Program-made: the position numbers and the translations under genes
Assembly: GCA_017506865.1 (NCBI GenBank)
Contig: JAFCMP010000201.1
Location: forward strand, 992,001 to 1,056,000
Source: Tribonema minus
Taxonomy: Eukaryota; Sar; Xanthophyceae; Tribonematales; Tribonemataceae
Direction of reading: 5' to 3'
DNA length: 64,000 nt
Part shown: positions 507-61,115 of the stretch, in pieces
Layout of the letters: every line of letters begins with the position of its first letter
Position numbering within the stretch: the first letter of the stretch is position 1
The notes under the pieces: generated by a model
What the model was told of the DNA's origin: nothing
Seen by the model: the letters and a program-made list of their open reading frames with translations, nothing else
The model's database searches: none

Positions 507-3500
507 ATGCAGCTGCACCTGCTGCTGCTTGCATTTGTGAGCGTACTCAATGGCTCAACGAGCTTGATTACAGCCGCATTGCCTTGTGCGCAAGATGGCA
601 AGCTCTTGCAGAGGCAGGCATTGTCACCGCTGCAACATGGAAGATTGATCATGTCTGCTGCTGGGGCGTCCTCGAGAGTGCTAGTCATAGGCGGATCAGG
701 ACGCGTCGGCGGCAGCACCGTGCGTGCACTACACAAGTACTATGCGGGCAGTCCGGAGGCGTCAGGGCGACCAGCGGGGGCGAAGCTGGAGCTGCTGGTT
801 GGTGGCAGGAAAAGAGACAAGTTTGACAGAAGCATCAAGGTAGGCGCACTCCAGAATTCACCGACTTGTGTTGCCTTTGCAGCTTCTGCAGATGGAGGAT
901 CTGGTGTTGCAATCATAGCAAGCACATTGATCACTACCACTGTGATACAAGCCTGTGGTTGTGCGGACAGGCGACGCTGCCTGGCAAGCCGGGTGATGGC
1001 AACTGGAGTTGAACTCTGTTCTCATCTTCAGCTGTTCTCAGTTTTAGCTGTGTCAGTGTAATCATGGAATAGCATGGAATCGGCAACAACTCCTGAATCC
1101 TTCTGCCATTCATACGGTTGTTTTTTGAACGGCTGCTGTGCTGATGGTGTACATTCTGGACTGCTACCGCACTGCTGTTGTACTGCAGCGGTGGCGTACC
1201 CTAGAGCCTGCAGAGTCCTACGAGGACATCAGCTTTGTGCCACTGGACCTGACCAACCATGCATCGCTGGTAGCGGCGATGGCCGGGTGCGACCTGGTGG
1301 TGCACACTGCTGGCCCGTTCCAGGTATGTAGTCTAAGTACTTGAAGTATTTTTACTTACAAGTGTTATTGTGTGAAAGTGTTAAGTGCATGGGTGCTGAC
1401 ACTGTTTTCTGCCATGAGCATGTGACTGCCATATGCTCCAACGATACTTGTTGCGCGTATGGCACCCATGTCAGTCATGCAGAGGCGTGAGCTGCTGGTC
1501 AGACTGCACCAGCACCATCCATTTCGCTGATAGCGAATGTCAATGTCGCTGGTGTGGTGGCAGGGGAAGGACTCTGCTGAAGTGCTGGCCGCAGCACTGG
1601 AGGCAGGCGCCCACTACGTGGACGTCTGTGATGATGCCAAGGTAGGTAAGTATGGAGTCTGAGCGTGATTATGCCAAGGTAGGCAGGTATGGAGAGTGAA
1701 CGTGCGCGACTGTTTTGCCCGGCACACACGAGTACAGGATGACAGTGACACATGCTGAAGTGGGTAGTCGTGGTCATGAGAAGCAGCTGGTGTCTTCTAG
1801 AATCTGATTGCAAATTGAGGTTGGGCACATGCAATGTACATACCCCTGCAGTAAGACAATGGACGTCAGATGCACAGCAGCGGCGTGCAGTTAGTGTCGC
1901 TGTTGAAGTGCGTCCCAGCATCGTACTTCAAGCACCTGAAGTGCGCATCTGCATGGTGTACGCAAGTTGAGCAGTACTTAGTTCATACTTTGAAGTACAT
2001 GCATGCGAGAGAGTGCACACCTGTGTTGACCGCTAATGGCACGCTCCCGCCTTGCACTTGGGTCCCCGTGGTTAGCAGGTTGTGAATTCATGCTTCTATC
2101 AGACTTCATGTCTGTGCGGCGCATGGGTGAAAGCTTCTGTGTACTTTTTATTAATTCTCGCTCAGGGCGCGAAACAGCCCAGATGAATGGCATCTAACTT
2201 GAAGCTTGCTGTACGGAGTCTACATGACATTGTCGTGTGACAGTCTGAAAGTGTCTCAACGACAGCCACTCAAACGCCACCGCCGCCAAATGGCTTCTGT
2301 GTACATGTCGTTCGTCATGTACACATAAGTATGAGAGCACAGGTAGTACATGGTAATCGCACAAGCCCCGCATGTGCACCTGGATGCTACAGTACTCCTG
2401 CAGCAACGCGTGATTACAGCAAGCACAGCAGCACATGTGTGCCCAGAACCACAAACTGCACCATGATATGATGAGATATATCATTGCTTTCCTGCCCTCT
2501 TGTTTGTCAAACAGGTGGCCAGGAGTGCCAAGGCACTGGAGCCACAAGCGAGGTATGCCATAAACCTCTTCACACCACCTGCTGCGCACAGCATGGAGTC
2601 CTGAAATAAATGAATCACAAATGACTAGTGGTACGGTGGCAGGTAGTGCCATGCATTTGCTGCTCTGTGCACCAAGCGGTGTACTTGCTTTCGAGTACTT
2701 TAAATTACAGCAGCCATATCAATATTTGCGCCATGATTGCCGACCGCTGTTGAGCGCTGTTGTCATGTTGCCACACTCGCTAATTGCCGGGACACCATCC
2801 TGTACGATAGGAAAGCGTCATCTCAATGCCGTTGCTGCTTTCTATGGAAGCAATAGATGCGGCAGTAGATCAGCATGTGTTTGTCAGTGTACCTTCTTCT
2901 GATTGCAGTGGTGGGGCAGGACCCATTTCTTTATTGTGGGAGCGCTTTGTGCCCTTGGAGTTAGGGTTCAGGGTAGTGTTAGGGTTAGGGGTGGGATTAG
3001 AATGTTCCAGCCTCACAAGCAGGCTGGTGGGGTAGCCAAGCTGCACATCGACTGCCCCGAGTTGAAGTATGCCGGATGCAGGTTCCATTTTCGTTTACAA
3101 CTTCCAGTGACTCGCTCGTGAACACGCTCATTAACGCCCGGCACAGCACTACATATGCGTTAGGGCTGGTGCCAGGAACACATGGCATTGCTCAGGCCCT
3201 GCTTGTACTTCAAGTATTGCATTTCAACATTGCATAGTGTTGATGCCAGAAACCATGGTGCATGCCTCCATTGCACTTCAACATTGCACAAAATTGATGC
3301 CGAGAATCAAATGGCATTTGCTCAGGCCATGGCCGTACTGCAAGTAATGCACTTCAAAGCTGCACAACACCGCCAACATGTTGGTACTGGGTGTACTTCA
3401 GTGTTGCATCTCCACAGTGCACTGTATGACGTAGCACTGCTCAGCCCTGGTTGTACTTGAAGTATATCACTTCAATATTGAAATTGGTTACTTCAATACT

Positions 3501-13315: not shown

Positions 13316-16300
13316 CGGTGGTGGGTATGCTGAACAGGGGAAGCGAGTGGGAGAGCGTGCCGGAGGTGGTCATGATGACTCTCATCGAGGTGCGTGATTT
13401 CTCGCTTCTTGCGCTGCCAACAACACGCGGTGTACAACAGCTGCTGCTGGTACCGAGCAGGAGAGGTTATTATTTGTGTGGCTTGCGACACAGCGTGGCT
13501 ACAAGCCATGCCCTCGAAGCAGTGGAGGACATCCCGCAAGGCCGCTTCCTGCACCGGTTCCGCGTTCTGCACCTTCACGTAGCTAAGCAGCTCCTGAACG
13601 TGCTCGTCAATGTGCTGGTGCTGGTGTTCAAAGAGTATCTTGAGCTCACCAGATGTGATACGAATCGTTAACGTCTTTGAAGGTGCTGCGTTTCCAGTCA
13701 GGCGCGTAGGAGCTACCGACAAACTCGAGCTTTTCATGGTTCCCGCTGCATTTACCTCACATGCACACCTCGCCGCGCCACTCCTGCGATGGTTCCAGGT
13801 TACCGCTTTGCTGCGTGATCAAAACAAGGCGATGCGGGAGATGGCCGCTGAGATCACGCAATTAAAGCGTCACGTTGCGAGGTATGTGTGTGAACGCTCG
13901 CTGTATTTGTTGCAGCATTCCTGCTCGCAAATCGGCTGAGGCTGCTGCTTGTCCGAATGCGCAAGGCTCAATGCAAACGGTACTCGATTAATCTGAAGTT
14001 ATTCGCTGTGCTGTGATTGAATGTGACAGCGGCTTTGCCACATTCGAATGGAGCGCCTCTCTCGTCGAAAAAGTGTCGGTTGGATAGGCGACATGCAACC
14101 ACATCAATACTCAAGCGCATGAACTGAGCTTGCAATCAATATCTCATCAGTTCCACATTTCTTAGAGGAGTTAGCCCTGCAGCTTCAGGTTCAAAATGCA
14201 TCTGCTTTGTACAGTGATGGCCGAGTTCAACTTTCACCTCTTTGAACTCCCAGTGCTGCAACACTGTGCTTTCATCACAGAACCATCCGCTGCCTGAGGC
14301 TATTGTATGCAGTGGTTTCATGCTATAAGCAAGAGCATGCCATCATGCACAGGCCAATTCAAAAAAAGTGGGTTACGCCGTTCAGGTTGGCAACGCCAGC
14401 ACTGGGTGCTCCTGTAGCCAGGGTGGGATCAGTACCCTTTGTCAGGTCAGAATTGCTTGTGGGTGCTAGGATCTAAACCTCCGCCTAACACTAGGGGTCT
14501 CAAACCCTAACCCTACATAGCTCAAGGGCATCACCATGCTCATACAGCAGAGCGTTGACAATGTCATAAATGTGCACATGCGTGCCCTTGCAGCAAAAGC
14601 GGCACCTCTGGGCGGGTGAAGGTGGATAAATCAATGATTGATCATCTGGCGGAGATGCAGCGGCAGGGGCATGCAGGATATAAGACGGCGTACACGCGCG
14701 CGGCCATTGCAGAACTCAAGGTGAGTGAGCACTCACACTGTAATATTGCGTGGCTGAACTTGAAGTTGTTGATAAAACTTGATGTGATAAAAGCATGGGG
14801 GCTATAAGACGGCGCATACGCGTGCGGCCATTGCAGAACTCAAGGTGAGTGAGTACTCATACATGCGGTATCACGCAGCCGAACTTGAAGTTATCATATT
14901 TTGACAAAAAGAGGCAACTCAACACATCTTCCGTCCATGGGTGTCCCGAACTCACAGCAGCGATGCGTGTCTATTCTTCACTCACAGTGACTTGATTGCG
15001 CATGTAGGCGTGCCCAAGCTTACGAAGGTCCTGTATCTGAATTTGGGCCTTTCTTTTGTTGTGAAGTCATCATGATTGAAATGACCCTTGTCATCCTATG
15101 AACATGGTAATTGATGATGATGCCACCAGCACGTTCTTTCATTGATTGTCACCATGCAAGATCGGAAGACCTGGATACATGAGCCCTTGGTGCACTGTAG
15201 GCAGGTTTTGACCAATTGCGTTGCTTTGAATCGCAAGAGTTTGAGTGTGTTTTTTCTTATAAATCAAGGCTACATGTCATTGAAGGTCTTCAAAGGTCAA
15301 AGCCCTGCTCACATGTGTGTCCATTTAATGTGCCGCTGTCAACAGCTCCCATGCAACAAAAGTTCATGAAGTGCTGTTGAAGTATAGCAGATGGACCACG
15401 TGTCAAGTTTCGTCCCATGCAAGTACAGGGCGTTATATCAACCCGACTCATCAACCCAAGTGATCATCAATTTGCTCCACCATTGCCATGGTCGGGTAGG
15501 TCGCTGACATCTTGACCTAGTGTCTGCAACCTCAACTTCGAGTGCCATCTGGTGAAGTTGATGTTCAACTAAGCAAATGTGAATGAGCGCTGCCGCACCA
15601 CGTAAGCACTGCTGCCACTTGAGCACTTTGAAATGCACTGAGCATGTGCTTCACTTGCTTGCCCAACACTTTGTGACTCACGCGATCTGAGTCGACTTAG
15701 CTGAGGAATCTGCGGCTTTAACTTCAACTTGTGCCCGCATTTGTCGCTACATGTATAATGTCAAGGATTGTGAAAGCCCCACTCATGTCTGTGCTGTCAC
15801 TTTGTCATGGCATCTGTCCTTCATCACACAGTCTGTGTTGACAGTGCAATTCATCGCCATACACCCTAAAAGTCGAGGTTTTGACATGTGCACTGCTGCT
15901 GCCACTGCTCGTGTGCGCACAGAACGAGGAGGCAGATGCAGGGGACGCAGCCTCAGTCACTTCCCACAGATCAGGTGAGTGACTGCTAACATAAACAGGC
16001 ACAGTTTGAGTCGTGGCCAATTGCTGCAGCAGCGGCGACCACGGTTATTGGTGGAAGGCATTCAATTGGACGCCTAACCACACTTTGTCACTTAGAGCTC
16101 TACGATCTGTTGATTCGTTTTACAGAGCAGCTGTAAAGCCACGACGCTTGACTTCTGCTAGTTCTAGTGTTTGCTTAGGGTTCGGGTTTAGGGTTAGGGT
16201 GTAGGGTTAGGGTTTCAGTTAAGGTGTGGCGTGCACTGGGCGGCTGTGATAGGGCTAGTGTTAGGGTAGGGGATGCTACATCATGCGTCAGTACTTCGCA

Positions 16301-19300
16301 CAAATCAGGTGAGAGACTGCTTGTAGTGGTGCACACAGCATACTAGAATGCTGGTAGGGAATCCTCATCAAGATGCAGTAGTACAGAAGGTTTAGATAGG
16401 GCTAGTTGAGTGATTATTCGGCTTAACCTGATCAAGTGTCTGTCATCGATATGTCCTGAAAAGGGCCACCTGCTCCTGGCCATACTCAGAGTTAGGGCCA
16501 GGGTTAGGGGTAGGGTTAGGGTCAGAGTAGGGTTGGGAACAACCCAACTCCAACCCTGATCCTGGTCGTGTGTTCGCGTGCGTGCATGCAGGAACACATC
16601 GGGTGCCTTTATACATACCTGCTCAAATGAGCAGCACTGGGCGCTGTCTCATGTACAAACACGAGTTCACTTACATAGCCTCCCCATGCTCAGCAACTCA
16701 GCATTGCCTCTGCCCTTGCCCCTCATACATACATGCCCCTGTCAGACAAGAGCACGTCGTCTCGTGGCTCAAAGGCCTCCACTGAGCCAGAGCATGGCGC
16801 GGATACGGGAGATGATGCTTCTGTGACATCATTGGGCTCTACGTCAACGGCGGTGAGTCAACTTCAACTTACTCATCTTCTAACAGGTTCTCTCAGTACT
16901 TCTTGTGATCGGTATCGCCACTTAAAGACATGCGTTATCCAGATTGACGGAGTTCACAAACTAATTTCTTGTGATCGGTATCGCCACTTAAAGACATGCG
17001 TTATCCAGATTGACGGAGTACACAAACTAATAGAAGTACTTGTTATGAAGCGTCAACTGAATACGATGCCTACATGCTGTGCTGAGCACTGGTGTGACAG
17101 TACAGGACACGTCACCCCCCCACTCCTGTAGCCGGTGATTTGCTTCTCTTTGCAGACCACAGTATCACGCACCGTAGTCATTTTCCCAACCCTACCCCTA
17201 ACCTCACCCTAATCAAACCCTCATCTTAACCTGTGCTTATCTGCCATTCCATGCCATTGAGCGTGCTCAATTGTGCATCACATTTCAAGCTGCTGCTCAT
17301 ACTTGCATAGCCATTGCCCCATCCATTTCGCTGCCGACTCGGAATCGCCCTTCATCTTCTACTCTGAGTCTTCTGACAGACCGCTCCAGAGCCTTCGAGC
17401 AGACGATACCTTTCACCCGATCCATTTCCACATATCACTTCGCACACATTGACATGATGTTGTTGTTGTGTGTGATGTTGTTGCTGTAGGGATCTCTGCT
17501 GAGCATGCCACTTGAGGGCGGAATTCTTTCAGCCAAGGGCAGCTTGAAGGGCAGCAGAAAGAGCGGGAAGGGAGTGAGGTTTGCAGAGGAGGATGCGGTG
17601 TATGTCTACACTGTCAACCTCGCTGACTTTGACGAAGTCGCTGTGGCAGACAGGGTGAGTCTATGTAGACTTTGTATGCACTGTCAACCGTGCTGACTTT
17701 GCAATGGCCGTTTGGTTGCGGTGTGTGCATGTATGTACACTGTCGACGTCACTGACTCTGGTAATGTTGCAGTGGCCGATAGGGTGGTTATGTGTGGTGT
17801 ATGTATGTTTGTTTACACTGTCAATCTCGCTGACTTTGATGAAGTCGCTGTGGCAGGCAGGGTGAGTGAATGCAGTCTCTGCAGACAATACCTTTTGATT
17901 GTCATTTGACACCATGTACAGGATGGGAGCGTAACCTAACCCTAACCCTAACCCTAAGGAGGTCAGAGATGTGTAAGTTTGTTGCCTCACTTTGATTGCT
18001 ACTCACAGCTCCCGCCCTCAGTATATCGTACTTGTATTTATTGCCAACTGCAGGATGATGCCAACTGCAGGACAATCTCCAGTCTTTCTGACTCTCCTCT
18101 AACACGCTGCATTTATTATTCTTTGCCGTACACAACCGCCAGATGGGAGCGTAAAAGATGTGACTGCTCAGTCGATGAGTTACAGTACAGTACTTGCGGC
18201 ACAGTACAGTGTGTAATTGCTGTAGAAGTTTGCTGCTCACCGCTCACTCCTCTGTGTTTCTTGTCTTCAACGCCACCTACAGGATGGAAGCGTGAAGAAG
18301 ATTTGCTGTGTATCGTCTCCTCTGCTTGCTACTCGCAGCTTCCACATCGTGCTTGTATCTGCTGCCAGTTACAGGCTGGTCTTTTGTGGCAAACTTCTCA
18401 CACGCTGCATACCGCGTTCATTGCCAATTACAACTTACAGGATGGGAGCGTAAAGGAGGTGACTAGGCGCGGTCACGGCAAGAAGCGCCATGCCAAGGAC
18501 GAGAATAAGGAGCTGGTCTTTGTGTTTGAGAATGCAGACGACGGTGAGCTTCAACAATTCAGTTGTTTGAGCAAACACACATACAGACTGGCAGCGCGTA
18601 CCGTCAGAAGTCAGAAATGTGGTGTGTGCGACTGAACGCGTGCATGACTCAATGCTCATTTCAAAGAGTCATTTGTGGTTGCAGTGTTCATGTGAAATGG
18701 AAGTTGAAGCGTCTGCTAACATACGCGACACAACTGTGCTCTGACAAGCTCTATGAGCTGAGCGTCATGGAACACCTGGCTCGGCCAAAACGGCGCATAG
18801 CAACATCCATTCTGAGTTATTTTTCAGTCACAACTTCAACTTGATGATGCTTGAACACGCTACCTGCCTGGTGTCTTGCACATTGCAACTGTCTTCACCT
18901 TCTTTACGTACACCCCATTGGCCCGGCATCACAACAAGCCACCAATCTATACCTTGCACAGCGCAACACATATCACATAGATACATGTAGTCTATAAATT
19001 GCATAATGCAGCAGACCTCACCTACTGTACCGCGGTGGTGTTGCTGGATTTTGCAGGTTCTATTGGCTCTGCAGTGGATTCGGATGCCAGCGATCTGGGC
19101 TCTGTGGGATCTGCGGGCTCGTTGTCATTAGAGAAGTCACCGGAGCAGGCGCAAGCGTATGCAGACATACGCGCGCTTCGCAAGCAGGTATGTATATTCC
19201 CATTTTTGTGAAAAAGTCGCAGTATGGTTGTATCATATGTATGTTCCCCTTTTCAAGCAAGACGTAGTATGGTGGTATCATCAATATGTATGTACATATA

Positions 19301-22054
19301 ATTGTGCATTTTGCGCAGTACTGGAGCTGGTCAGCGCTTTTTATGTGTAGGAAGGTGAACTTTATGCATAGGTGCTTACCTCAGTGGAGTCGCGCAGCCC
19401 TTCAAACGAGCGTCTTCAACGTACCGGAATAATGGGCGGGCGCTTTGTTATGATGTTGAATTTCGGGGTTGAATTGTGGAATGCAAGCACACAGGCGGTA
19501 CAATCAGTGCTTCGCAAGCATTGTCACCTGAAGGCCAAAACACTGCGCATGATATGATAGCTCTATTACCTGCAGTAGCATCAATGGTGGTCATCTCATG
19601 TGCTGCAACGTTCCGCAACCGCTGTCGCAGAGTAAGCTGAAGAAGGCCACGCTTGAAGTTAGTCACTTGAAGTTAGTCACTCGAAGTAGCATCAACCAGT
19701 GCTAATGTGTGCTGGGACGTCTTGCAACCGCTGTTGCAGAGTAAGCTGAAGAAGGCGCAGGCGAAGGCCCGGGAGGAAGCAGAGCTACGCCGCGCATTTG
19801 AGGCCAGGCGTTACAACGGCGGCATTGACGCATTGGAAGATGCTTCCGATTCTGGCAAGGTATGCAAAGCAATCCTGTGTCTCCTTGCTCTGAATTTTTC
19901 AGTATTCTACAGTGATTTGGGTGGCGTTGAGTGTAGGGTGATTCGAGACAGAGTACTTCGTACGTATATCTGATTGCTCTGCGCTCGCAGGCGCTATTTA
20001 GTGATGTGTGGGTGAGTTGATGGAAGTGAGAGATTTCTCAGACTCAGAGAGTTTTTTGCGCAGTTCACGATGCACAATGACAGGCTTGACTTCTTGGCTT
20101 GACAATGCTCATGGCTTTCAAACGAACATGTGCTGCCATTTGGCGTGTCTCAAGTGCACTCTGAACGAGTAGAGGGCGAGCGAGTGACTCGTCTGAAGTG
20201 AGTGACTTGTCTAAAGTGAGTGACTTGATTGAAACCCCAGCCCACAAACAAGCGACTGCGCCTCTCTCTTCCCAAGAAGCAGACAAACAGACAAATTAAC
20301 AGCACATATACGCAACTTCATGTTTCGGCAAGTCACCCCCGCCTCGGCGTGAGCGCAATTGTCCCCTACCACCACGGACGCAACTTTGTGTTTTAGCACG
20401 TCACTCGAACTTCATGTTTGGGCAACGTCACCCCCCGTTTCTTCGCAAGCACAGCTGTCCCCCCAGACCAGCACCTTGACACACAACTTGATGTGTTCTG
20501 ATCCGTCATCCGAACTTCAAGTTCTGGCATGTCACCTTCTTTCGCATGCGCAGCAGCTGTCCCCGGACCAGCACCTGGGCACACAAACTTAATGTTCTGG
20601 TACGTCAACTGAACTTCATGTTCTTGCACGTCACCTCCTCCCACGTGCGCAGCTGTCCCCGCACCAGCACCTTGCACACAAACTTAATGTTCTGGCACGT
20701 CAACTGAACTTCATGTTCTGGCACGTCACATCCTCCCACGTGCGCAGCTGTGTCCCCGCACCAGCACCTTGACACACAACTTCATGTTCTGACCTGTACT
20801 GAACTTCAAGTTCTGGCACGTCACCTCCTCCTGCGTGCGCAGCTGTCCCCGGACGAAACTCGCACGCACAACTCGCCGGAGCTGAGCGACGCGGCGTCAC
20901 CTGAGAGGGGAGTCACCGCCATTGACACTTCAAAACTTCAGCACTCGATGGCAAACGTTGTGAGGCATCAGCAGCGCGAGAAGGGCGCTGCGGAACGCGC
21001 GCCGCGCTCAGGTACGTTCTAGGGGTATGATAGGTATCATTGCGCGTTGTAATGGCGGGTATGTCAGGTATCATATTGTGTGTGTCGTGCTGTGTGCGTG
21101 TATGTGTCATTGCGCGTGTGTGCTGCGCAGCGTGCATGTATGCACGATGTTGCTTGTGCATTCTGACTTAGCTCAGGTGCGATGGGTATGATGAGAATCA
21201 TTTCGCGTGTGTGTGTGCTGCAGTGTGCACGTATGCAACTGTGCTGATATTTGACCGTGACTTGAGCTCATGTGCAATGAGTATAGTAGGCATCTTTGTG
21301 CGTGTGTGTGCGTTGCAGTGTGCGTGCATGCAACGTTGCTGGTATCTGATCGTGACTTGGCGCAGGTGCGATGCGTATGATAAGTATCTTGTGCGTTGTG
21401 TGTGCATTGCAGTGATTGCGTACGCACAATGTTGCTTGTGCATCCTACCATGACTTAGCACTGGCACATGGCAGTTACATTGTCGTCGTCAGACGTGACA
21501 GACTCTCAAAAACTGGCCGCCCTTTGTTCCCACTCCGAACATTCACACACTCCCAAATCACATGTCTTTTCTCATCTGTACCTGCCCAACTCCGCCTGTT
21601 TTCTCCTCACCACCCAGGCGGCGAAGTTCCCGAGTCTGGCAAGCCAGAGGCCCACGCACCCTCCTCCGCCGCTGCCGCCGCCGCAGCAGCAGCAGCAGCG
21701 CGCCCCGCCGCCGCCGCCGCAACCGCAATCAGCGTCGACACCGTTGACAGCAGCACCGATCTGAGCGTGAGCACTGACGCGGGGTCACGCGTAACTGCCC
21801 CCGCGCCCCCCTGCCCTGCGAGCCCCGAGCACCCCCCTACGCGCAAGGTGGTCAAGGTGCCGCCGGGCAAGCGCTTGCTGCGCGTGTTCATGCGCGGCGC
21901 CGCGGACAGGGACGCGGGCGACAGTTACAGCGCGTCTGGGTCCGAGTCGGGGTCCCTGGGCGTGGTCGATGACGGCAACGTGACGGACGAGGACGATGAC
22001 GTGGAGATGTCGCCAGAAATGGCCATGCTCGTCAACGCGCTCGCGCGCACCTGA
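13276..22054 (+). CDS. Unrecognised 535-aa coiled-coil and low-complexity protein, 11 exons
   Basis: Exons: 13276-13389, 13799-13881, 14594-14720, 15923-15974, 16746-16852, 17490-17654, 18441-18543, 19057-19187, 19740-19859, 20843-21011, 21618-22054. Every junction is GT-AG with matching phase, and the sum is 536 codons including the stop. Residues 1-108 look helical or coiled (LLRDQNKAMREMAAEITQLK, MIDHLAEMQRQ). Residues 109-161 are Ser/Asp-rich (SSRGSKASTEPEHG). Residues 162-230 are basic (KGSLKGSRKSGKGVRFAEED, RRGHGKKRHAKDE). Residues 295-334 form a charged helix (LKKAQAKAREEAELRRAFEA). A polyalanine run follows at about 408-430, and the C-terminus is acidic (NVTDEDDDVEMSPEMAMLV). No catalytic domain was recognised; a cytoskeletal or scaffold role is only a guess. 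Other small exons could have been missed. The start codon lies in the duplicated 302-bp repeat. Many introns carry tandem copies of exon edges. Confidence 0.7.
14797..14858 (+). repeat. Ghost copy of the exon 3 donor edge (535-aa gene)
   Basis: The 3' end of exon 3 (ATAAGACGGCG...GCAGAACTCAAG then GTGAGTGAG, donor at 14720/14721) is repeated 124 bases downstream with a few substitutions and an intact donor at 14844/14845. Confidence 0.85.
16009..16124 (+). repeat. Dispersed ~115-bp repeat family, copy B
   Basis: The most complete plus-strand copy: GAGTCGTGGCCAATTGCTGC, CGACCACGGTTATTGGTGGA, TAACCACACTTTGTCAC, AGCTCTACGATCTGTTGATT. It lies in an intron of the 535-aa gene, 35 bases after the exon 4 donor. 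Confidence 0.85.
16268..16320 (+). repeat. Ghost copy of exon 4 with donor
   Basis: GATGCTACATC...CACAAATCAG then GTGAGAGACTGCT resembles the end of exon 4 (GACGCAGCCTC...CACAGATCAG then GTGAGTGACTGCT, donor at 15974/15975). The copy lies 334 bases downstream, with a telomere-like tract (16177-16270) just upstream. Confidence 0.6.
16900..17031 (+). repeat. 66-bp tandem duplication in an intron
   Basis: TTCTTGTGATCGGTATCGCC and the following bases to CACAAACTAAT occur twice head to tail at 16900 and 16966, with one visible mismatch. The near identity implies a recent duplication. Confidence 0.95.
17668..17880 (+). repeat. Tandem ghost copies of the exon 6 donor edge
   Basis: Exon 6 ends TACACTGTCAACCTCGCTGA...GTGGCAGACAGG then GTGAGT at 17654/17655. 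Diverged copies follow at about 17678, 17728-17790 and 17812-17862. The last again has TGACTTTGATGAAGTCGCTG and a full donor (GGCAGG then GTGAGT at 17861/17862). Confidence 0.85.
17912..18440 (+). repeat. Tandem ghost copies of the exon 7 acceptor edge
   Basis: Exon 7 starts ...ACAG then GATGGGAGCGTAAAGGAGGT at 18441. Copies of the acceptor plus exon start precede it at 17922 (GATGGGAGCGTAA), about 18054 (diverged), 18142 (ATGGGAGCGTAAAAGATG) and 18283 (GATGGAAGCGTGAAGAAG). All have an upstream AG. Confidence 0.88.
17935..17957 (+). repeat. Interstitial telomere-repeat insertion in a ghost exon
   Basis: About four C-strand units of CCCTAA sit between GCGTAA and GGAGGT of the first ghost copy of exon 7. 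In the real exon the sequence is GCGTAAAGGAGGT, so the insertion point is within the TAA. Confidence 0.85.
19610..19655 (+). repeat. Ghost copy of the exon 9 acceptor edge
   Basis: CAACCGCTGTCGCAG then AGTAAGCTGAAGAAGGC at 19631 duplicates the real acceptor and exon start at 19740, 109 bases downstream. The acceptor is intact. Confidence 0.9.
20335..20842 (+). repeat. Tandem array built on the exon 10 acceptor edge
   Basis: About six units of roughly 95-105 bases repeat GAACTTCATGTTCTGGCACG, then TCACCTCCTCC, then GTGCGCAG and CTGTCCCC. The last unit contains the real acceptor (exon 10 starts CTGTCCCCGGACGAAAC at 20843). The other units keep CAGCTGTCCCC but diverge after it. Confidence 0.9.
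21005..21440 (+). repeat. Tandem array built on the exon 10 donor edge
   Basis: Exon 10 ends GCTCAG then GTACGTTCTAGGGGTATGAT at 21011/21012. Units with CTCAGGTGCGATGGGTATGA (about 21174), CTCATGTGCAATGAGTATAG (about 21267) and CGCAGGTGCGATGCGTATGA (about 21360) follow at about 93-base spacing, joined by TGTG-rich sequence. Confidence 0.8.
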
Positions 22055-32400: not shown

Positions 32401-34439
32401 CCAGCTCAGGGTTGCCCCTTGCTTGCACTGACCCTGACCGTAATTCATACATCTATTTGAGCACATTGTTGAGCAGATGCTAGCAATGGTGGTGGCAGCA
32501 GTAGCGCACAGCATCAACTTCACCACGCATGCGCAAACACACAAACCCTCAAGAGCCGATGCCCCCCCAACGCACCAGCGTTAAAGCTCCACATCACAAT
32601 CTCCATATCAACCGCGTGGGTCCAACTTTACAAATTTGACTTTTCAAATTCACCTTTGTGACTTCGACCCACCACAGCCACAATCTGAAACTCAACGTCA
32701 CACGGTTCAAACTTCAGAACTTCAACTTCAACATCAGAACTTCAACTTCACCTGCAGGATGCCCGCGTCCGCCAGCGTCAGCAGCTCCGCACCGTCCACC
32801 CCCTCCAACACCTTCTGCTCGCCGTACTGCGCTGGCTGAGCACTGATGTCGTGGTGCTTGCCCCTGTCACGCGCACGCAGCAGCCGCGGGTGCACCTCGC
32901 GAACCAGGTTCGTGAAGCCGCGCGCCGCTATCACCACGCTCTTGTCACGGGACTTTGCGTATGCGGCAATGTCCTGGGCGAATGCGTCCATACCGTCCTC
33001 TGATAGGGTAGCGGGGACGCGCCGTATGATCTCTTTGATGGAGTTGATGCCGACCGCCATGACGTCGCCGCTGCAGCGCTCTGTGACCATGTTGTGCGCG
33101 ATGGCCTTTATGATGGGGAGGATGTCATCGGGGGGGACCAGGGGGTGGCACGCTTGCACCAGGTACGCCAGGATGTGCGTCACCTCCCTCTGTAACAGTT
33201 GAACAAGGGCAGGTAGGTATTGCACAGTGTTTTGAGTACTGGACTACAGCCAGGATGTGTGTACACTGTGTTGTTGAGAGTAGTAGTAGTCTACAGCCGG
33301 GATGTGCGTAACCTCCTTCTGTGACAGAAGGCACGGGCAGGTGAGTTAAAACTTGAGTATTACACAGTATTTAGAGGAAGACAGCCCGAATGTGTATATA
33401 CTGTTGAGAGTACTTGTGAACTGCGTGATCTCCCTCTGTACCAGATGAACACGGGGCAGGTATGCGTTTATGTACTGTGGTGGGAGTACTGTAGCACAAT
33501 CAGGATGTAAGTAACACAGACCCCCCTGTTGTATAAGTACGCAAAGCAGCGACGTGTAGAACGAGTTGGACACTGCTTCCAGGCGAACGTTCGCAGCAGC
33601 AATAATGGTGGTGATGACCAGGTGGCGCGCAGCGCAAGTTGGTGTTTTAACTTAAAAGGCGTGCATAACTGCTATTGCAGGCACGAGACCCTGTGTGCTC
33701 TAGCTTCAGGAACAGGCCTATTTACGCGCACTTATCTAGCCTGTTGAAGTTGCCTCGACTGCCGCGCACACACAGCAGGCGGTTGCAGTACAACAAGCAC
33801 CACATCAACTTTGATCCAATACACTAAACTGATGATAGCCACTATGCTTACGCCCTAGTTCAGAGTTCTGATCTTAAGCACACAATTGGTGAGTGATCAT
33901 GTACAAACATATTATTATGGTTGCAATCACGAGTGGATGGCCTCACCTGATGGCTCTGTATGTACCGCTGCAGGAAGCTGTAGAAGGGCAGCATGAGCAG
34001 CTGATGAGCGCTGATGATGCGGCTGATGAAGTTCATCATCAGCAGCTTAACTTCAAACCTCTCGCTGCTCCCGCGCAGCCTCTTGAACACCTTTTCCGCC
34101 GTGCCCTGCGGGTCGTTGAGAAGGTTGATGGCGGGAAAGAGGCCTGCCTTCTCCTCGTCCACCGCATTCAGTTTCTTTCTGCAACAAACGATGAGGGGGT
34201 CAACAGGGGGTGCAATGAGTGTCTATGTAGGCTCTGAGGTAACCGTGTGAAACGTTGGAAGGAAATTCAGTTGTCTCTTGCAATAGACACTTCAGCAAAC
34301 AGAGAGGATTCACAAGCGCTAGTTCAAGCCAGACCGCAGGACATTGGTGAACTGCGGTGAGGCACCGGACGGCTTACCGGTATAAGTTGCTGTGCAGCGT
34401 GGCCGTTTGCCAACTTCCATGGTGACGCAAACACATGCG

Positions 34440-34511: not shown

Positions 34512-37500
34512 CGCAAACACATACACACACATACACACAAGAGCAGCAACTTACTTGCGCTCCTTGACCTGCTTCTTGATTTTGCGCGCAATAGCACTCG
34601 TCTTCTTAGCATGCTGATGCATCTCCACCTCCGGTGCCCTCTTCCCCTCTGCCTCATCCGCATCCTCCTCCTCTTCCATCTTTGCATCGATGCTCAGAAA
34701 GAAGTTGAGCGCAGTGGTAACCAGTTTTGTGACGCTGCTGTCGAGCGCTGCTGCGATGACGTTTACGGTTCGCGCATCGGTCCAGACGCGGCGCTTGTAG
34801 AGCTCCACCATGACGTCGAGAGACTTTTTTGCCGCGGTTTCGCTCTCGTCCTGGAGCATGGTGTACATGAACGCCTGCACAGACAAAACGAGCATGCAGT
34901 CTACGAGGTTAGTGTTGGAAGGCATTCAATTTGACGGCTAACCACACCTTGTCACCTGGAGCTCTACGATCTGTTGATTCGTTTTCATACATCAGTTGAG
35001 CTTAATACTAGAAGTGTGCGGTGTATGCTCCCTTAACGCCTGCACAGCGGAAACAAGCACACGGTATACAACATATGATCTTTGCTACTAGATGTGTGTT
35101 GTGTGTGCTGGTGTACATGAAAGCCTGCGCAGCGGAATATACGCAGAGGTGTTTGATATTTGAGCTTGAACGTAGGGGTATGCACATGTGTGCGAACTTC
35201 GCCACGGTGTGTATGAACGCCTGCACAGCGCAATGCGTAGAGGGTGTATGACACTTACAGCTTGATCCCAGGGGTATGTATATGTATGCGTACTTCGCCA
35301 CGGTGTACATGAACGCCTGCGCAGCGCATTCATGCAAAGGGTAAAATGTACGTGGAGGATGTGAAGGTTCCCTCACTTTGCCACGGTGTATATGAACAAC
35401 TTCGCAGCAACATCGCGCGCAGGTTTACGCAGTTAGATGCTCACATTGGTAATATACACGTGGACTTCTTCACATTCAACTTGCAGTTTCTCACCTGCAG
35501 CGTGCGGTTCATCTTCTCATTGCGTGCCTTGAGGTTGATGGCGCGAATGTCGCTGACTGTGTGGTCAAACAGCAACTGCCTCAGCGACTGCAAGAATGCA
35601 CAAGCGCAGAGGAGACAAGAGCAGCACACAAAGACAGCAGCTGATCAGCAACGCGTCTGTGTCGTGGGTCATGATGCAAATGAGGGGGTCTGAGTAGGAA
35701 GTCAGTGCTACATGCCAAGATGCAAACCAAGGGTGCGAAGAGAGTGTCAAACGGAGGGGCTCTACGGAGACAAGTCCGCTAACGGCGCACACAGACAAAC
35801 CAACAGAGAGTGCAATATGCTGCTAGAGATGGGCACTGCGCACACTCTTGAGTCAAAGGTAATTTGCGGATGATCCGCTGCTGTGATTCACAATGAGCGC
35901 AAGTACTTGACTGACAGATAGATATGTGTGCGGGACGTGCTGCACTTTTTGCAGCGTTCTCGTTAGGATTTGCGTCATGTGCCACTGTTCAAGTGGCCTC
36001 CGGAAGTGCTTCTGGTTGGCGACCTGACCTGACCAAGCCCTAACCCTAACCCATCCCCTGACTGTCCTGTCCCCACAACGCACGACAAGGTGGCGGTTGC
36101 GCAATGCCTGGCAGGTGCAAATAAGTACTACATAAGATGCAAAGTCAGGAAAAGATAGGGTCAGCGCTTCGCGATGCATAAGTGTGTCATCGCGACAGTC
36201 GGTCTTGATTGTGCTGATGCCCAAGGGCAGTGCCGCAGCAGCCATCTGTGCCTGGATGTCTAGCACAAGGAAGCCAAAGCGTAGAGTATGTATAGAATCG
36301 CTTAATGCGCACGTCTGACTGTGTCTTGAAGGTGCCCATGCGAAGTTGACCCCGCCTTAACTTGACCATGACACAAGCAACGCAGCTCATGTGCATTGTG
36401 GCATCAGTGCGCTACACTTTTCAAGTTAACGCCCCCAAAGTTGCACATTACACAACACCGCAGCTAGTCATTGTGGCATCACTGCCATCCTCTAGGCACT
36501 ATGCAAGTCCTGCCGTCGAATGGCGCCAGCTTATTGGGTGCAACGGTGAAACTTCAAATCGGACTCAACTGCTGGCACGTCCTGGACAACTTGAACTTTA
36601 TGCATGCATACTTCAACTTCATACACTGTTTTCAACAACCCCCCCACATTCCCGTAATCAACACTTCAACATCCGCGCAGCTCTCGGGATTGGGATTACA
36701 GTTACCTCAAACTCTAGGTCTCCCTGAAGCTTGAGTACTGGCGAGTGCCGTCGTGTACTGTTTGAAGTACAGCACAACAACGCCAGAGAGTGACATTCGT
36801 CCACGTACTCAGGCGGACACGACCGCGAACTCATGACAGCTCATGCCAAATTTCATCATTAAAGTAGTGTGTAATTTCATCAACAGCAAATCTACTTTAA
36901 GGGCAGGTATCATGTGCCGGCGCATAGTGGTTTGTATACGTCTTTAGCTGCCCGTTATTCAATGTCCATCATGCAAACCACTGCAATCGATGAAGGTGCA
37001 GAGCACCCTATATACGACCCTTGATGATCTTGTAAGGCAGCCTGTTTGTCTGGATGCAGCAGGAGCTAAAACCAATCAAAGTCATCTCTGGGTCAGCCAC
37101 CACACAAACGCTGCCACTGCCAAAACCTCACAACTGTGCTGTTGAAACCTACATAGCGTTAGCGTTGCCATTTCAAAGCCTGGTTGGGCGCTTCTTCGCT
37201 GCGCACCTTGTCCTGTATCCTGAACAGCTTGAAGAACAGCTGCAGGAGGTCCGTCGAATTCAGCAGCCCCCTATTCCGCATCAGCACCAGCGCCTGCACG
37301 AGCTTTATCCGCAGTGCAGGATCGATGATGGCTCCATGCTCCTCCAACAGCGCCATAAGCTCCTGCGGCAGCATCTTGCAGTCTTCCTTGTAGCACGGCG
37401 CAACGTGGCTGAGGAACGTTACCAGTTCCGCGAACCGTTCCGCGTCGCGCCCCGGCTTCAACTTGAAGATCTCCAGCTCGCTCATGTAGTTGCTGTGGTG

Positions 37501-50832: not shown

Positions 50833-50907
50833 GCACACAGGGACCACTTTCAAAAGTGCAACTTCAAGCGACATGTGAAACTTCAAGCGGTTCACTTCTG
50901 CAAGTGC
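50833..50907. promoter_or_regulatory. Putative bidirectional promoter / overlapping leaders of CNX7 and RidA
   Basis: Only 75 bases separate the chosen CNX7 start (50832, minus) and the first RidA ATG (50908, plus). If the downstream RidA ATG (51037) is used the gap is 204 bases. No TATA box was seen. Transcription starts may lie inside the opposite gene. Confidence 0.5.
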
Positions 50908-55184: not shown

Positions 55185-55314
55185 CTCGTTGCGTACGAGT
55201 GACTCATTGTTGCATGAGTATGTGTGTGCGCCACACTGCTGGCCACGTAGATACATGGGGGTGTTGTTCGTCTTGGCAGCTGGTGTGTGCGTGTGTGGTT
55301 TTGTTTTGTTGAAG

Positions 55315-58300
55315 TTACTCTGTGGTTTTGTTGAAGTTTGACGGGCCCTTGGCAGCAGTGCCGTTGATGGAAGGCGTACGCGTAAGCACAAAGATGGACC
55401 TGAGGAAGGCAGGTAGATAGGGGAACGTAGTGTAAGTAAGACACATGGCTGAAATGGGCTTGCAGAGGTGTACACTCATTGTGCTGACGCTGTAGAGATG
55501 CCAGCGTAAAGCTGCATGCATGACCGTGGTGTTGAAGTACTCTCAGTAGACCCCTAACCCTAGTCCTAAACCTGAACCCTAAGCTTAACCAGAATCAGGG
55601 GTGCAGGTCATAAACATTGAGGCAACCGTTGGCGCTGAGCACATGTGTGAGCATCATGCTACACTTCATGTAGATGCTGTCCTGTTGGGGCTTGAGGTCA
55701 CAAGTGACACAGTGAAAGAACGCAACAAACAGCAGCGCTCAACTCACCCCTTGTTGCCGCGTGCGATGCGCAGATGATCATTCACATTGCAGCAACCCTG
55801 TCCTGAACCAACGCAGCTTAGGTTCAGAGCGAGGGTCTACAACCAGGGTTGAAGCAGCGCTCGACTCACCGCTTCTTGCCGCGTGCGATGCGCAGGAAGC
55901 CGTCACCATTACAGCAACCGTATCTATAGAAGATCACTATCTATAAAGTAATCACAGAATTATGTTCACGGCAGAAGGTCTACTACAAGGGTTACACGAT
56001 GACGAACAGCATTGCCAACTCACCCCTTGTTGCCGCGAGCGATGCGCAGGTGATCATTCACATACGTCGTCTCCAGCCACCCACGCGGGCTGAATCGCGA
56101 CAGGTGTGGGAAGCTCAGCTTGAGGCCGCCAATGTCCACTGCAGCACGCCTAAACTCAATGAGCAGGCGGTTGGCGTTCTCCTCACAGGCCTTGAAGATG
56201 GCATCGAGTTGTACGGTGGTGCGCAGGCCTGACCAGCCGCGGTAGCTCGCGCGGTTGGAGATGATCTGAGGCAGCAGGCGTACAAAGAGTGAGTGAGTGA
56301 GTGAGTGAGTGAGTGAGTAAGTAAATCAGCAAGTGGGAGAGGCAAAAATGTTAGGGAAGGCCTGATTGGAGATATGACACATGGGTGAGGCAGCAGGGGG
56401 GGGGGAGGGGGGGACAAGATGCAGACGACAGAACCAGTAATGACACGAATGCGCGCCAGCCTAAGCAATCGTACAAAGCGGTGTCTATGATGCTGCACAA
56501 AACCTCACAGCACGCAGACACACAGAAATGCCTACCCATGACAACACAACAATGCACGCAGTGCCTACCTGCGAGTCGGTGTCTATGATCTGGACGCTCT
56601 CCTCGGTGTCCGCCCAAAGCGGACGCCCATTCTGGTTCCAGTCGAGCAGGTAGGCCTCACCGCCGGCCTGCTGCAGCACCTGGCCATCAACAGCCGACAG
56701 CACCGCATCTGCAACTTCAGCTGAAACTTCAGGATCACTGTTGGCGCCCGCATCACCCCCGCCCTTGGGCTCCGCCATGTACTGCAGGTGCCATTCGCCA
56801 CCTACAGACTCAGCGGCAACTTCCGCCGCCGCCGCCTCAGTCACGGCAGCAGCGGCAGCAGCAGCGGCGGCGGCAGGGACCTGCGGCACGGCCGTGGCCA
56901 CTACAGCGGCAGCGTCGGCGGCAGCAGGGGCAGCATCTGCTGCGGCGGCGGAGGTGGCTGCGGCGGGCGGCGACACCGTCTCGAGCTGCTCAATAAGGCG
57001 GAGAATGGCGCGGCGGTCGGAGGTCGACTGAGCGTTGCCACGACGCGTGCCGGCGATGCGAGCGAGGAGCTCCATCTGGAGGGCAGACTCGAGTTGAGTG
57101 GAGGAACGTGCTGCGGAGACCTCCTGGAAGCGGTCGTAGGCCTTGCGCCAGAAGAGGACCTGCTTGTCGAACTTGGCGTTCATGTAGCCGCGCTGGTAGC
57201 CAGGGTAGATGGCCTCAATGATGTCCTGGGAGAGGGGGAAGGGGGGGGAGGCACACAGTGGCAGCGATCAGTGCAACTGCAGGGCTCAACAATTTGCCTG
57301 TCACCATGGCAGCTTGGTAGCAAAGCGTGAGATGCAGTGCCAGTGACACAACCACCACATAAGACCACGTTGGAAATACAGGTTTCCCAATGCGAAACAC
57401 GCACAGCGTCTGCCAAACCACTAAAATGTGCTGCCGTGCCGAGTACTGACACAGCCAAACAACGGCAAGCGCTACCTGCGCACCTTGTCCTCCTGAAGCG
57501 TGACGCGCATCATCTGGCGGAACAGGAGGTCCGCCGCGGCGTTGAGCGGCCCCTGGTCCATGGGGTGCGTCATGAAGAAGTTGCGGTACAACTTCCAGTG
57601 GAGCGTTGTCTTGCCCTCCTCGCTGGGCACTGCCGCGGCGTGAATGGTCTTGATGCAGTCCTCGCCAAAGAAGACGCGGATGACTGCGTGGTAGGGGAGG
57701 TGGTACTCGTTGCGAACAACCACCTCGGGGCTCTTGCCCACCACCTTGCTGAAGGACTTGGGGCCACTCTTGTACCTGGGAGGGGGGGGGGGGGGGGGGG
57801 GGGGGAGTGGTGAGTCACCAGTTGAGGTTGGGGGGCACACAAGGCGCACAAGTTCATAGGGTTCGAGGGCGGTGCAGAGTGAGTGGTGATCCAGCAGAGG
57901 GAACATGCCAGAGGCGAAGCAGCGAGCTTGATCGACGAACACAATATACTGGTGTCAGATGCTAGGATAACATCATGCGTACACCACCAAATTGGATACT
58001 GTAGTGATAAACGGCACATGTAGCCACCATCAACCTTACCTGAAAGTGACAGAGGTGCTAGCCAGAGCGCCATTGGCGTCATCGTAGGAGTGGTTGTAGT
58101 CAACTTCAAATGGGACGGGGCTGTTGAGGTTGCCAAAGCTGTGCACGTAGGAGATGTGAAGGAGATCCAGCATGTTCTCCATGCAGGCAGCGGCATCGCC
58201 ACCAATCTCTACGCTGCCCTGTGTGTGCGGATGCACCGGTGAGGGAGGGAGGGGAACAAGGGTCAGCACCAAGAGGGACGCAGGCAAGTGACGAGTTGAA

Positions 58301-61115
58301 AAATAGCTAAAGTTCAAAGACAGGCACAGACAGTAAGTTCAACTCAAAGACAGGTGCAAGCAAGGAGAGTCGATCGATGACTGAAGCATGCAAAATTGTG
58401 CAGTGCTATGGATGACCTCATATGACACCACAACAGCCTTTTAGTATATGCAGACAACGTGCAAACTTCAACTACGCACCTCAACGTAGCGGAACCGGGG
58501 GTCGCTGGCCTCAGCAATAGTGAATGGCTCGGAATACTGCTCAATGGCACCAGGGCGAGCAGCATCGGGGAAGAGGTAGATCCAGCCATTCTTCTCACGC
58601 ACGAGGTAGGCTTGCGTCTTGCGGCCGCTGCCGCTGCAGCCCTGGAGGGTGAGAAAGTGAGAAGTCAACACGGAAAGAAAGCAGAGAGAAGTGAGTCAGT
58701 TGAGGGGCAATGTGATGCGGCCGGGTTAGTCAATATGCGGAGGGCATGCAAGCCATGTATACGCAGGTCGTGATGTGTTGAACAAATCGTCGACACGTGG
58801 TGTACCTGTAGCGACATGGACTGAGTGACAAACACGAGCACACACTCCGCGTCTTTGATAGGACTGGCCATGCATCCAATATACTTCACAACAGCGTTGA
58901 CAGCGTTTCACCCCAACAATCTTCTGAAGGCAACCATTGACACGCCGAGCAGTGCATAATCCTGACCCTACATACTGCATGCCAGCAGCATTCTATACTA
59001 ATAAGAGTATGATACAAGTTTGTAAGCCAGCATCGATGCGCGAGTGCTGCCTAACCCTAGCCCTACTAAACGCGGCCCTACATACATACCTGCTTGGTGA
59101 CGCCCTCCTTGGTGACCCCGAGCATGTACTGCAGCTGCCTAACCCTAGCCCTACTAAACGCAGCGCTACATACATACATACCTGCTTGGTGACGCCCTCC
59201 TTGGTAACCCCGGGCATGTACTGCAGTGTACCGTGGCCATCGAACTCAAAGCCGTGGTAGGGGCACACGAGCCTGTCTTGGTGCAGCCAGCCCTTTGCGA
59301 GCGATGCTCCGCGGTGGATGCAGATGTCGGAGATGGCCTTGAGCTCGCCAGTTGAAGTGCGCCAGATGGCAATGGGCTTGCCGTCAACGGTGACTTTGAG
59401 AACCTGTGCGTGGTTAATATGCATGGGCGATGTGTGCTGTGTGAGCCAGTGACAGCATGAATGTAGAAGTACATGGTATACCTGCGTGGTAGTGCCTGGA
59501 CGTATGCAGGGCGGTTGTCGTGTTGTTCTGAACCACCAAGACGATGGGTCGGCTGACCCAAACCCTACGCATAGCCCTACACATGAGAGACGCGCGCACA
59601 CACTCGCATGGTGGTGATGGATGCTACTTCAAACTGAGGACTGCACTAGTAGCAACGCCACAAGACGACATGGGGGCCACGCAGTGCAGAATTCATTTGC
59701 CTCATCACAGGAACCCATCCATGTACTGACCTTCTTGCCCTTAAGAGAGGACATGTGGCCAACCGCGAGCCACAGATTAGGCACGCTGTCGGTGCACACG
59801 TTAGGCGGCATGCTGTCAGGCTTGCGCGCTTTGTTCACACGCTGCGCTGCCGCCGCTGCCGGCGCCGCCGCCGCAACCTCGGGCTTACTGAGCACTGGCT
59901 GCTCTGCTACAGGCCGCATCTGATCAGGCCCCATGAAAGATTGCGTGTCGAACTCGGCGGTGATGGGGGACGGGGGCCCCGAGGCGTCAGTTCGCGGCAG
60001 CACCGCCTGAGCGATGGTACGGCGCACGGCGGCGACCCACGCTTCGCCGCTGCTGCGAAGCGTCGCGGGTTGAAGTTCGGCGGTGTCTGCGTCGGTGCTT
60101 GGGGGGATGGCTGCGACGTCGAGCCATTGGTACTGGGGAGCGGTGCCGTCCGGGGAGGGGGATGCTTGGGGGATGATGGAAGGGGGGGTGAGCAGGTTCT
60201 GAGAGCCAGACAGGGGAGAGAGAGAGAGGGTGGCAGGCAGAGGTTGGGTAAGTTTGTGGCGAAGGTCGTGATGAAAGCATTGAACAGAGGATGCAATCTG
60301 TGCACCATCATGACATTTGAACAATTTGGCCACTTGGCAATTTCTGATTGGCAAAAACAATTCTCACCACAGAATACTGGGTTTTCAAATAAAACACCGT
60401 GCTGCCAGCGCACCAAGTGTGCAGGAGAGCGACTCTGGCACATAAGGAAACACTGTGAAGGATCAACACGTCGAATTCACACATAGTTGAGCTGTTGCTA
60501 GTGAGCACTTGCGAAACGCGCCAAAACTCGGATACCGTAACATCACGGTGCCACAGTACAGCCTCCAGGCACTGGCTTCCATATGAGATCAAGAACAACA
60601 CATAACTGACGTACTAGAAATAGTTGAATACCTCCAAAGAGTGCCCAAGAGTAAGTGACAGTTGACAAGCACTAAAATGTTACCGTCTTCCGACTCCGCA
60701 GATCCAGAGATCGTGTTTTATTTGTAGTTGATCGAAAGAGAAACTACATTGACACGAATAACAACAGATGCAGATATAGTTCCCACGCCTGCAGCCGAAG
60801 CCTTCTGGCTTTTTGGAACAAGCTGCCAAGACCGCTCGTTTCAGATCAAACACGTGTAAAACGTACCTCTCCAGCCTTCTGCTGTTGTCGCTGCTCGTCA
60901 TCAAACATCACTAGCCGCTCGCTGCTGCTGCTGTAAACCGGCCTCCCTGAGCAAGATCCCACGCCCTGACCCGTGAAGGCTGACCGGAGTGACGGGTAAG
61001 CCGTTAGCTGCCTGACTGGATACATCGAGAAAGAACTGACGCTGGCGCTGTGCAGCAGCGCCAGCGATGGGAGTAGCAGCCTCTTGGCACTGCATGGTGT
61101 TCGGCTCCTCCTCAT
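55315..61115 (-). CDS. Rieske non-heme iron oxygenase fused to a PAP/fibrillin domain, 9 exons, 851 aa
   Basis: Exons in transcript order: 60867-61115, 59731-60198, 59182-59403, 58480-58641, 58040-58218, 57484-57775, 56569-57225, 56024-56265, 55315-55399. All phases agree, totalling 852 codons. Residues 1-60 (MRRSRTPCSAKRLLLPSLAL) look like a plastid transit peptide. The Rieske [2Fe-2S] site is CIHRG...CPYHG (C267, H269, C286, H289). The mononuclear iron site NMLDLLHISYVH gives D385, H388, H393 in D-x2-H-x4-H spacing. From about residue 560 a plastid-lipid-associated/fibrillin domain follows: ELLARIAGTRRG, ILRLIEQLE, WHLQYMAEP, VDIGGLKLSFP, GWLETTYVNDHLRIARGNKG, IFVLTRT. It is interrupted by a long polyalanine/Glu stretch after IEQLE. 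Rieske oxygenases of this size in plastids oxidise chlorophyll derivatives or lipids, and fibrillins bind lipids or prenylquinones. A membrane-associated plastid oxygenase acting on a lipophilic substrate is inferred; the substrate is unknown. Confidence 0.9.
55741..55897 (-). repeat. Ghost copies of the Rieske-PAP exon 8 donor edge
   Basis: The real edge on the plus strand is AACTCACCCCTTGTTGCCGC then GAGCGATGCGCAGGTGATCA (exon ends at 56024). Copies are AACTCACCCCTTGTTGCCGC then GTGCGATGCGCAGATGATCA (55741) and GACTCACCGCTTCTTGCCGC then GTGCGATGCGCAGGAAGCC (55863). Both keep the donor. They lie in the intron before the last exon, about 120-160 bases apart. Confidence 0.93.
56287..56325. repeat. 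GTGA tetranucleotide repeat next to the exon 8 acceptor
   Basis: About nine GTGA/GTAA units. On the gene strand these read TCAC and lie 20-60 bases before the exon 8 acceptor, in the branch-point zone. Confidence 0.95.
57782..57806. repeat. G run of about 25 (C tract at a Rieske-PAP 3' splice site)
   Basis: On the gene strand this is a homopolymeric C tract ending just upstream of the TCCCAG acceptor of exon 6 (exon starts at 57775). Confidence 0.9.
59044..59229 (-). repeat. Tandem duplication of the Rieske-PAP exon 3 donor edge
   Basis: Two about 92-base units begin CTGCCTAACCCTAGCCCTAC (59046 and 59137) and continue TACATACATACCTGCTTGGT, GACGCCCTCCTTGGT, GCATGTACTGCAG. The right unit holds the real donor (exon ends at 59182). 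The left unit has an equally good donor at 59090. The units include telomere-like CCTAACCCTAGCCCT. Confidence 0.95.

Follow-up and report, generated by a model that had tools for sequence, protein, structure and literature searches.

Among the reviewed routes of intron gain is tandem genomic duplication (PMC3443670). In the Rogers model of this route, as set out in that review, a short intragenic tandem duplication involving AG|GT has its unit within an exon, and donor and acceptor are similar in register. An intron of the potato RdRp gene was made by a tandem duplication crossing the intron-exon boundary (PMC4974935). Internal gene duplication was described as ubiquitous by Gao and Lynch (2009), as cited in both papers (PMC3443670, PMC4974935). 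Break repair also gives rise to small tandem duplications in human and mouse cells (PMC8355091).

In this study, a stretch of 64,000 nucleotides from Tribonema minus (hereafter the window; G000:C201:992001-1056000, in an assembly of 158 Mb and 554 contigs) was analyzed together with other loci of the same genome. Intronic copies of an exon edge and its splice site, present besides the true junction, are termed ghosts. As in the potato RdRp gene, the repeated unit spans the border of intron and exon and brings the parental splice signals along; units hold exon, splice site and intron, although many pairs (14 of 33) have an intron part that is short or cannot be aligned. The potato case is one event that produced a new intron, whereas here many arrays, some of them multi-copy, lie within existing introns and no intron gain was detected. 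These duplications resemble those of the Rogers model in being short, intragenic, tandem and involving AG|GT, but they straddle an existing junction. Similarity of donor and acceptor flanks in register was found in 0 of 232 introns of at least 100 bp and in 0 of 1160 controls, a test that addresses recent events and that old ones would escape; it lends no support to the link with intron origin across AG|GT drawn in a preliminary description of this DNA. Frequent internal duplication is shared with the system of Gao and Lynch, and small size, local tandem arrangement and abundance are shared with the break-repair duplications, the mechanism of which was described for human and mouse cells. Boundary-crossing tandem duplication is already known; what is new, within a literature covered in part, is its density, since no description was found there of dense junction duplication, affecting roughly every sixth junction across several genes.

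Junction copies in the window and in other loci

Local direct repeats were sought by self-BLAST (offset 20-1500 bp, low complexity masked out). Genes were predicted with an HMM that was trained only on sequence of this genome (the window, a further 250 kb and eight kinase loci) and converged on the donor CAG|GTGAGT and the acceptor TGCAG|G; junctions outside homologous genes rest on this self-trained model. The window, which had been chosen in the preliminary description for its junction repeats, contains 16 arrays of local direct repeats and 3 inverted arrays; self-BLAST of one Markov-shuffled copy of the window gave no such arrays. Twelve junctions had been listed as duplicated in tandem, and at all 12, in agreement with that description, diverged copies of exon edge and splice site lie in the adjoining intron (Table 1). 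The copies are local and mostly in tandem, and are found in unrelated genes and on both strands, as had been claimed. The HMM placed 10 of the 12 junctions unprompted. At the other two we prefer the sites first listed to the HMM choices, and donor 56024 is favored because PAP_fibrillin proteins run on past RGNKG. The weakest cases are 21011, whose best copy includes about 6 exon bp, 1641, where the copy is just 37 bp off, and 34874, where the match spans 24-26 bp.

Table 1. Duplicated exon-intron junctions of the window (window coordinates) and their ghosts
Junction	Coordinates	Strand	Placed by HMM unprompted	Copies and remarks
Donor 1641, saccharopine-dehydrogenase-like gene	1641..1694	+	yes	copy 1665-1694; Pfam Sacchrp_dh_NADP match
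Donor 14720	14669..14892	+	yes	copy 14793-14892, 83% over 100 bp; ghost GTGAGT intact
Donor 15974	15950..16321	+	yes	38-bp match, copy 16285-16321
Donor 17654	17599..17881	+	yes	units ~76 bp (56 exon + 20 intron); copies 17730-17793, 17806-17881
Acceptor 18441	17895..18441	+	no; HMM picked 18375 (same frame)	copies 17895-17934, 18119-18165, 18275-18300
Acceptor 19740	19574..19756	+	yes	copy 19574-19647
Acceptor 20843	20314..20854	+	yes	period ~95 bp; four ghosts aligned, AG changed to AA in one
Donor 21011	21006..21459	+	yes	mostly intronic copies 21057-21074, 21171-21212, 21375-21399; intron array period ~91-95 bp
SDA1 donor 31611 (additional to the listed junctions)	31188..31626	-		copies 31427-31470, 31188-31209; predicted junction
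SDA1 acceptor 33189	33167..33508	-	yes	copies 33292-33342, 33422-33462; alignment to solved SDA1 spans junction
SDA1 acceptor 34874	34874..35328	-	yes	copies 35109-35132, 35203-35228, 35299-35324 (24-26 bp); 96-bp-period intron array
Donor 56024, Rieske/PAP_fibrillin gene	55725..56063	-	no; HMM picked stop at 56020	copies 55725-55787, 55864-55896
Donor 59182, Rieske/PAP_fibrillin gene	59046..59226	-	yes	copy 59046-59134

Two gene pieces match SDA1_HEAT (2e-90 and 3e-35) over profile ranges 1-103 and 104-363, which supports the SDA1 gene; these ranges abut at the 34874 junction. The Rieske/PAP_fibrillin and saccharopine-dehydrogenase-like genes are also backed by homology; the former, at 56020-60198, is a single predicted gene that unites a Rieske/VanA_C oxygenase with a PAP_fibrillin domain. 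No clear family was found for the gene at 14-27 kb. Triplet-repeat runs encoding alanine-rich or similar stretches occur in one predicted gene at 22061-22160, 25590-25634 and 27207-27270.

Other arrays of the window, at 3167, 16900, 30812 and 44674, fit ordinary intronic minisatellites. An array of this kind is unrelated to the exon, whereas the copies at the 12 junctions contain exon bases. The array of 330-bp units at 44674-45322 (two copies, 94% identical) is not located at a junction and lies outside any confident exon's vicinity, inside a long minus-strand ORF or predicted intron. That at 16900-17031 is a 66-bp tandem duplication, 98.5% identical, within a predicted intron; no microhomology is visible at its ends, because the array is exactly two units long. 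Short telomere-like TTAGGG/CCCTAA tracts are present in introns at 16175-16215, ~17936-17961 and 30032-30078; such motifs number 3.1 and 3.6 per 10 kb in the window and are fewer in contigs C112 and C544.

The other loci comprised a VPS13-like gene on contig C544 (VPS13_VAB match of 8.9e-14 in one of two scanned stretches), kinase genes on contigs C135 (L035) and C120 (L004), and 200 kb of contig C112. Junction copies were also found in the VPS13-like gene and in both kinase genes; in L035 they occur at nine predicted junctions, and at three of these the adjoining predicted exon is itself a ghost. Control queries of 30 exon and 20 intron bases were compared with their own intron and with other introns. 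At a score of at least 30, own introns were matched in 10/86 cases in the window, 6/75 in C544 and 1/306 in C112, against 0/430, 2/375 and 0/1530 for other introns; at a score of at least 34 the counts were 10/86, 5/75 and 1/306, against 0/430, 1/375 and 0/1530. Chance and the common splice consensus do not explain the junction copies. Local repeat pairs are far more often direct than inverted (27 vs 4 in the window, 78 vs 8 in C112, 43 vs 0 in C544), and shuffled sequence yields no local direct pairs.

For further comparisons, the window, C544, L035 and L004 were combined as a repeat-rich set (39 introns without the window), and C112, L034 and L037 as a poor group. L004 and L035 were drawn from a kinase search blind to repeats; the assignment of L004 and L035 to the rich set and of L034 and L037 to the poor group was post hoc, made once their repeats were known. 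Of the eight kinase loci and four later loci scanned, the recurrence profiles took in L004, L034, L035 and L037 only, and omitted L007 (1 repeat pair), L008 (5 pairs), L001, L002, L005 and L006 (0 pairs), L036 and L003. L036 (G000:C334:1052501-1057500; GC 0.68) is a GC-rich kinase locus that bears 15 local repeat pairs, most of them within or close to predicted exons. L003 (G000:C40:407475-411242; GC 0.75, 3 pairs) has a signature unlike the rest and perhaps belongs to a bacterial contig in the assembly.

Junction windows recur in 27/162 cases in the rich set and in 0/259 in the 200 kb of C112 (Fisher p = 1.5e-12), or in 0/263 when L034 and L037 are added to C112. Intron bases inside a local repeat copy make up 9.4% in the window, 10.8% in C544 and 1.5% in C112. 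Junction duplication thus looks patchy within one genome, rather than genome-wide as had been proposed. Mixing of two organisms in the assembly was considered as the source of this patchiness and rejected: codon usage of the window, C112 and C544 correlates at 0.95-0.98, tetranucleotide signatures overlap among contigs, and SDA1 matches are confined to C201. The RuBisCO small subunit gave no match, in a search whose control responded only in Synechococcus, and neither did PF12499, for which no control responded; the intronic TTAGGG tracts and the Rieske gene allow at most a guess at an alga with a red-lineage plastid, and the Amorphochlora genome (PMC12730881), with a GC content of 27%, does not fit. 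Equal or near-equal kinase matches on C90/C179 and on C144/C223/C278 point to haplotigs or to recent segmental copies, a possible source of polymorphic duplications. C112 carries intergenic satellite-like arrays at 300001-310000 (L009), and C544 carries repeat-bearing ORFs at 1027000-1041000, which we take to be retroelement-like in appearance.

Recurrence at junctions and in intron and exon interiors

Windows of 40 bp were slid over junctions and their recurrence was sought in the next 700 bp; introns shorter than 200 bp, windows of low complexity and those with under 700 bp of target were excluded, and 17 predicted exons were dropped as ghost copies or as shorter than 12 bp. In the rich set, the [-20,20) windows recurred in 27/162 cases against 302/5724 intron interiors, a 3.16-fold excess (95% bootstrap interval 2.1-4.6). 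Recurrence formed a narrow peak from -30 to +20 that leaned exonward: it reached 19/156 at [-40,0), and there was no enrichment just within the introns of the rich set, at [0,40) (9/163, 1.05-fold) and [20,60) (8/161, 0.94-fold). The background against unrelated sequence was 0/162 at [-20,20), 6/156 at [-40,0) and 79/5724 in interiors. Donors (16/80) and acceptors (11/82) both carry duplicated junctions, as had been stated for the window. The excess is 3.6-fold (2.3-5.1) in C544, L035 and L004 without the window, and falls to about 2 (27/421 vs 368/11257) when C112 is added. In C112, interiors recur in 66/5533 cases and junctions in 0/259; junction copies are absent where intron repeats are rare.

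The preliminary description had set exon edges against segments from inside exons, and its expectation holds in the window, where junction windows recur more often (11/86) than exon interiors (5/205), but not cleanly in C544, L035 and L004, where exon interiors also recur often (21/197). In C544, 24% of exon bases lie within a repeat copy, with the retroelement-like genes counted in. Its proposal that introns are lengthened in this way found no support, as no significant gain in length is seen in introns whose junction is duplicated (medians 757 vs 606, p = 0.33; 710 vs 704, p = 0.53).

The junction excess stays at about 3-fold across scores of 34 to 58. The raw ratio drops to 2.3, 1.7 and 0 at scores of 62, 66 and 70, where 4, 2 and 0 of the 162 junction windows are left. 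Under a worst-case correction for a frozen copy, applied at three settings, the comparisons become 11/162 vs 302/5724 (1.3), 7/162 vs 185/5724 (1.3) and 2/162 vs 111/5724 (0.6). With duplication simulated as uniform, the junction/interior ratio came to 0.83-1.25 when ages were young or uniform, and to 1.4, 2.3 and 3.9 at ghost divergences of 0.14, 0.18 and 0.24, with detected pairs at 10-12%. At a score of 54, C544, L035 and L004 together showed 10 windows at [-40,0) and 0 at [0,40), and the window showed 3 and 2.

Whole arrays straddle junctions in 15/42 cases when pooled, against 16.1 expected at random and 11.8 under a rule of tolerated placement. In the window alone the count is 8/15, against 3.4 with that rule (p = 0.007) or 5.1 without it (p = 0.085); in C544 it is 6/17 against 7.1 or 4.8, and in C112 1/10 against 3.9 or 3.6.

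Divergence of ghost splice sites

From the window, C544, L035 and L004, 33 junction/ghost pairs were examined. As had been noted, ghosts often keep the splice dinucleotide (30/33; GT in 14/16, AG in 16/17) and look usable by score: 14/16 ghost donors and 13/17 acceptors (27/33 in all) reach at least the 10th percentile of functional sites, compared with 16% and 21% of background GT and AG. This retention is biased upward because ghosts were detected by similarity around the splice site. Where the intron side aligns, mismatches amount to 154/822 (18.7%) there and to 130/1258 (10.3%) on the exon side, a ratio of 0.55. In 14 of the 33 pairs the intron side is unalignable from the junction onward, which indicates that the true asymmetry is stronger than 0.55, beyond what a frozen copy alone would give.

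By codon position, mismatches number 71/35/74 of 500/504/496, second positions being altered half as often as first, and nonsynonymous changes stand to synonymous ones as 116:63. This pattern is roughly neutral, close to our rough expectation where a constrained exon is paired with a freely drifting ghost. A post hoc selection of well-preserved ghosts, counted by hand, gave 19/9/36 and leans to third positions. Ghost offsets are not divisible by three in 20/33 cases, near the two thirds expected by chance. The HMM read several ghosts as exons: an extra in-frame exon of 45 bp at 59090-59134, within the copy of donor 59182, two of 66 bp in C544 (1329-1394 and 1718-1783) and one of 45 bp in L035 (1954-1998). 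At the nine junctions with at least two ghosts, ghost-to-ghost identity is 0.84 over exon positions 1-20 bp and 0.72 over intron positions 7-20 bp; as a sign of selection on ghosts this comparison was set aside as uninformative, because the ghosts were located by their likeness to the exon. Anchored identity profiles count as weak evidence, with a gapped-random baseline near 0.58 (0.48-0.60).

Origin of the junction copies

The explanation to which we give about an even chance is that local tandem duplication is frequent, is tolerated outside coding sequence, and is seen for longer at junctions through one constrained copy. Parts of the genome would undergo frequent short local tandem duplication, with units of mostly ~40-450 bp, probably by break repair with fill-in and end joining. 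Copies disrupting coding sequence would tend to be lost by selection, and those in introns or straddling junctions could survive because splicing can keep using the original site. In units that straddle a junction, purifying selection would act on the exon-side copy, and the intronic ghost would drift along with the GT or AG it carries. Junction pairs, having one constrained member, would then stay recognizable for longer than wholly intronic pairs, and arrays may appear to cluster at exon edges because of this longer recognition. The outcome would be a passive supply of intron sequence and decoy splice sites, the ghosts themselves probably not being used in splicing.

The lower mismatch on the exon side fits such preservation and would follow from an almost frozen exon copy. 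The lack of enrichment just inside introns, the roughly neutral codon pattern, the predominance of direct over inverted repeats, the local nature of the units in the one stretch queried (17300-21700), the pooled array placement, the worst-case-corrected ratios, the drop of the raw ratio at the highest scores and the pattern in C112 support it. The steadiness of the excess over scores of 34 to 58 counts against it, since a bias from preservation should fade in young pairs, and so do the array count of the window alone and the smaller number of changes at second codon positions. The frequent recurrence of exon interiors in C544, L035 and L004 and the share of C544 exon bases in repeat copies fit poorly with a clean loss of coding copies. 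Preservation is further weakened by the unalignable intron sides and by highly similar copies that stop at the junction in C544, L035 and L004. Tandem duplications might instead form more readily at exon-intron junctions, for instance where breaks are favored, making the excess mutational; we hold this as a tentative alternative, with the smaller chance of being right. The sharp peak, the excess over interiors and the absence of [-20,20) matches in unrelated sequence agree with it, as do the excess outside the window, the copies at nine L035 junctions and the window-only array test, significant with the tolerated-placement rule. The excess also lies above uniform-duplication simulations at the observed divergence, and these reach it in full only if most duplications are old, which leaves room for a mutational preference for boundaries. 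However, units of 70-200 bp should reach into the introns, where no enrichment is seen; pooled arrays straddle junctions about as at random, with unsupportive counts in C544 and C112; junction copies are almost lacking in C112, and the excess shrinks when C112 is pooled; and membership of the rich set was decided with the repeats already known. We therefore lean towards preservation over a hotspot. That junctions are true hotspots of tandem duplication, about one in six bearing mostly intact ghosts, with some in-frame ghosts becoming new small exons, seems unlikely; if true, such junctions would be a running source of alternative splicing and of change in gene structure.

Judged from the DNA, ghosts might also serve as alternative splice sites or be small in-frame exons that selection maintains, as the retained and mostly strong GT and AG, the exon calls of the HMM and exon parts sometimes far better kept than intron parts would suggest; the roughly neutral codon pattern and the near-chance offsets argue against this reading, which we consider improbable. 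The birth of new introns, by duplication of an AGGT-bearing exon segment as in the Rogers model or by introner elements, has a precedent in the potato RdRp intron (PMC4974935), but is very improbable here, given the lack of in-register similarity. Nor do the units behave as introners: a single 4.4-kb query (17300-21700), in a search that skipped very common words, found them to be local, the matches elsewhere in the assembly being simple-sequence or telomere-like apart from one of 69 bp (81%). Assemblies are known to be prone to error at tandem repeats. An assembly or sequencing artefact is nevertheless scarcely credible, as the window copies are 67-98% identical rather than near-identical, exon and intron sides decay differently, and the pattern is present on four contigs (C201, C544, C135 and C120).

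In practical terms, these loci are a warning to gene predictors, as a trained HMM took ghosts for exons. If about one junction in six carries decoys in some loci of this genome, these would form a natural test bed for how the spliceosome chooses between near-identical sites, and also for the growth of introns and small exons by local duplication.
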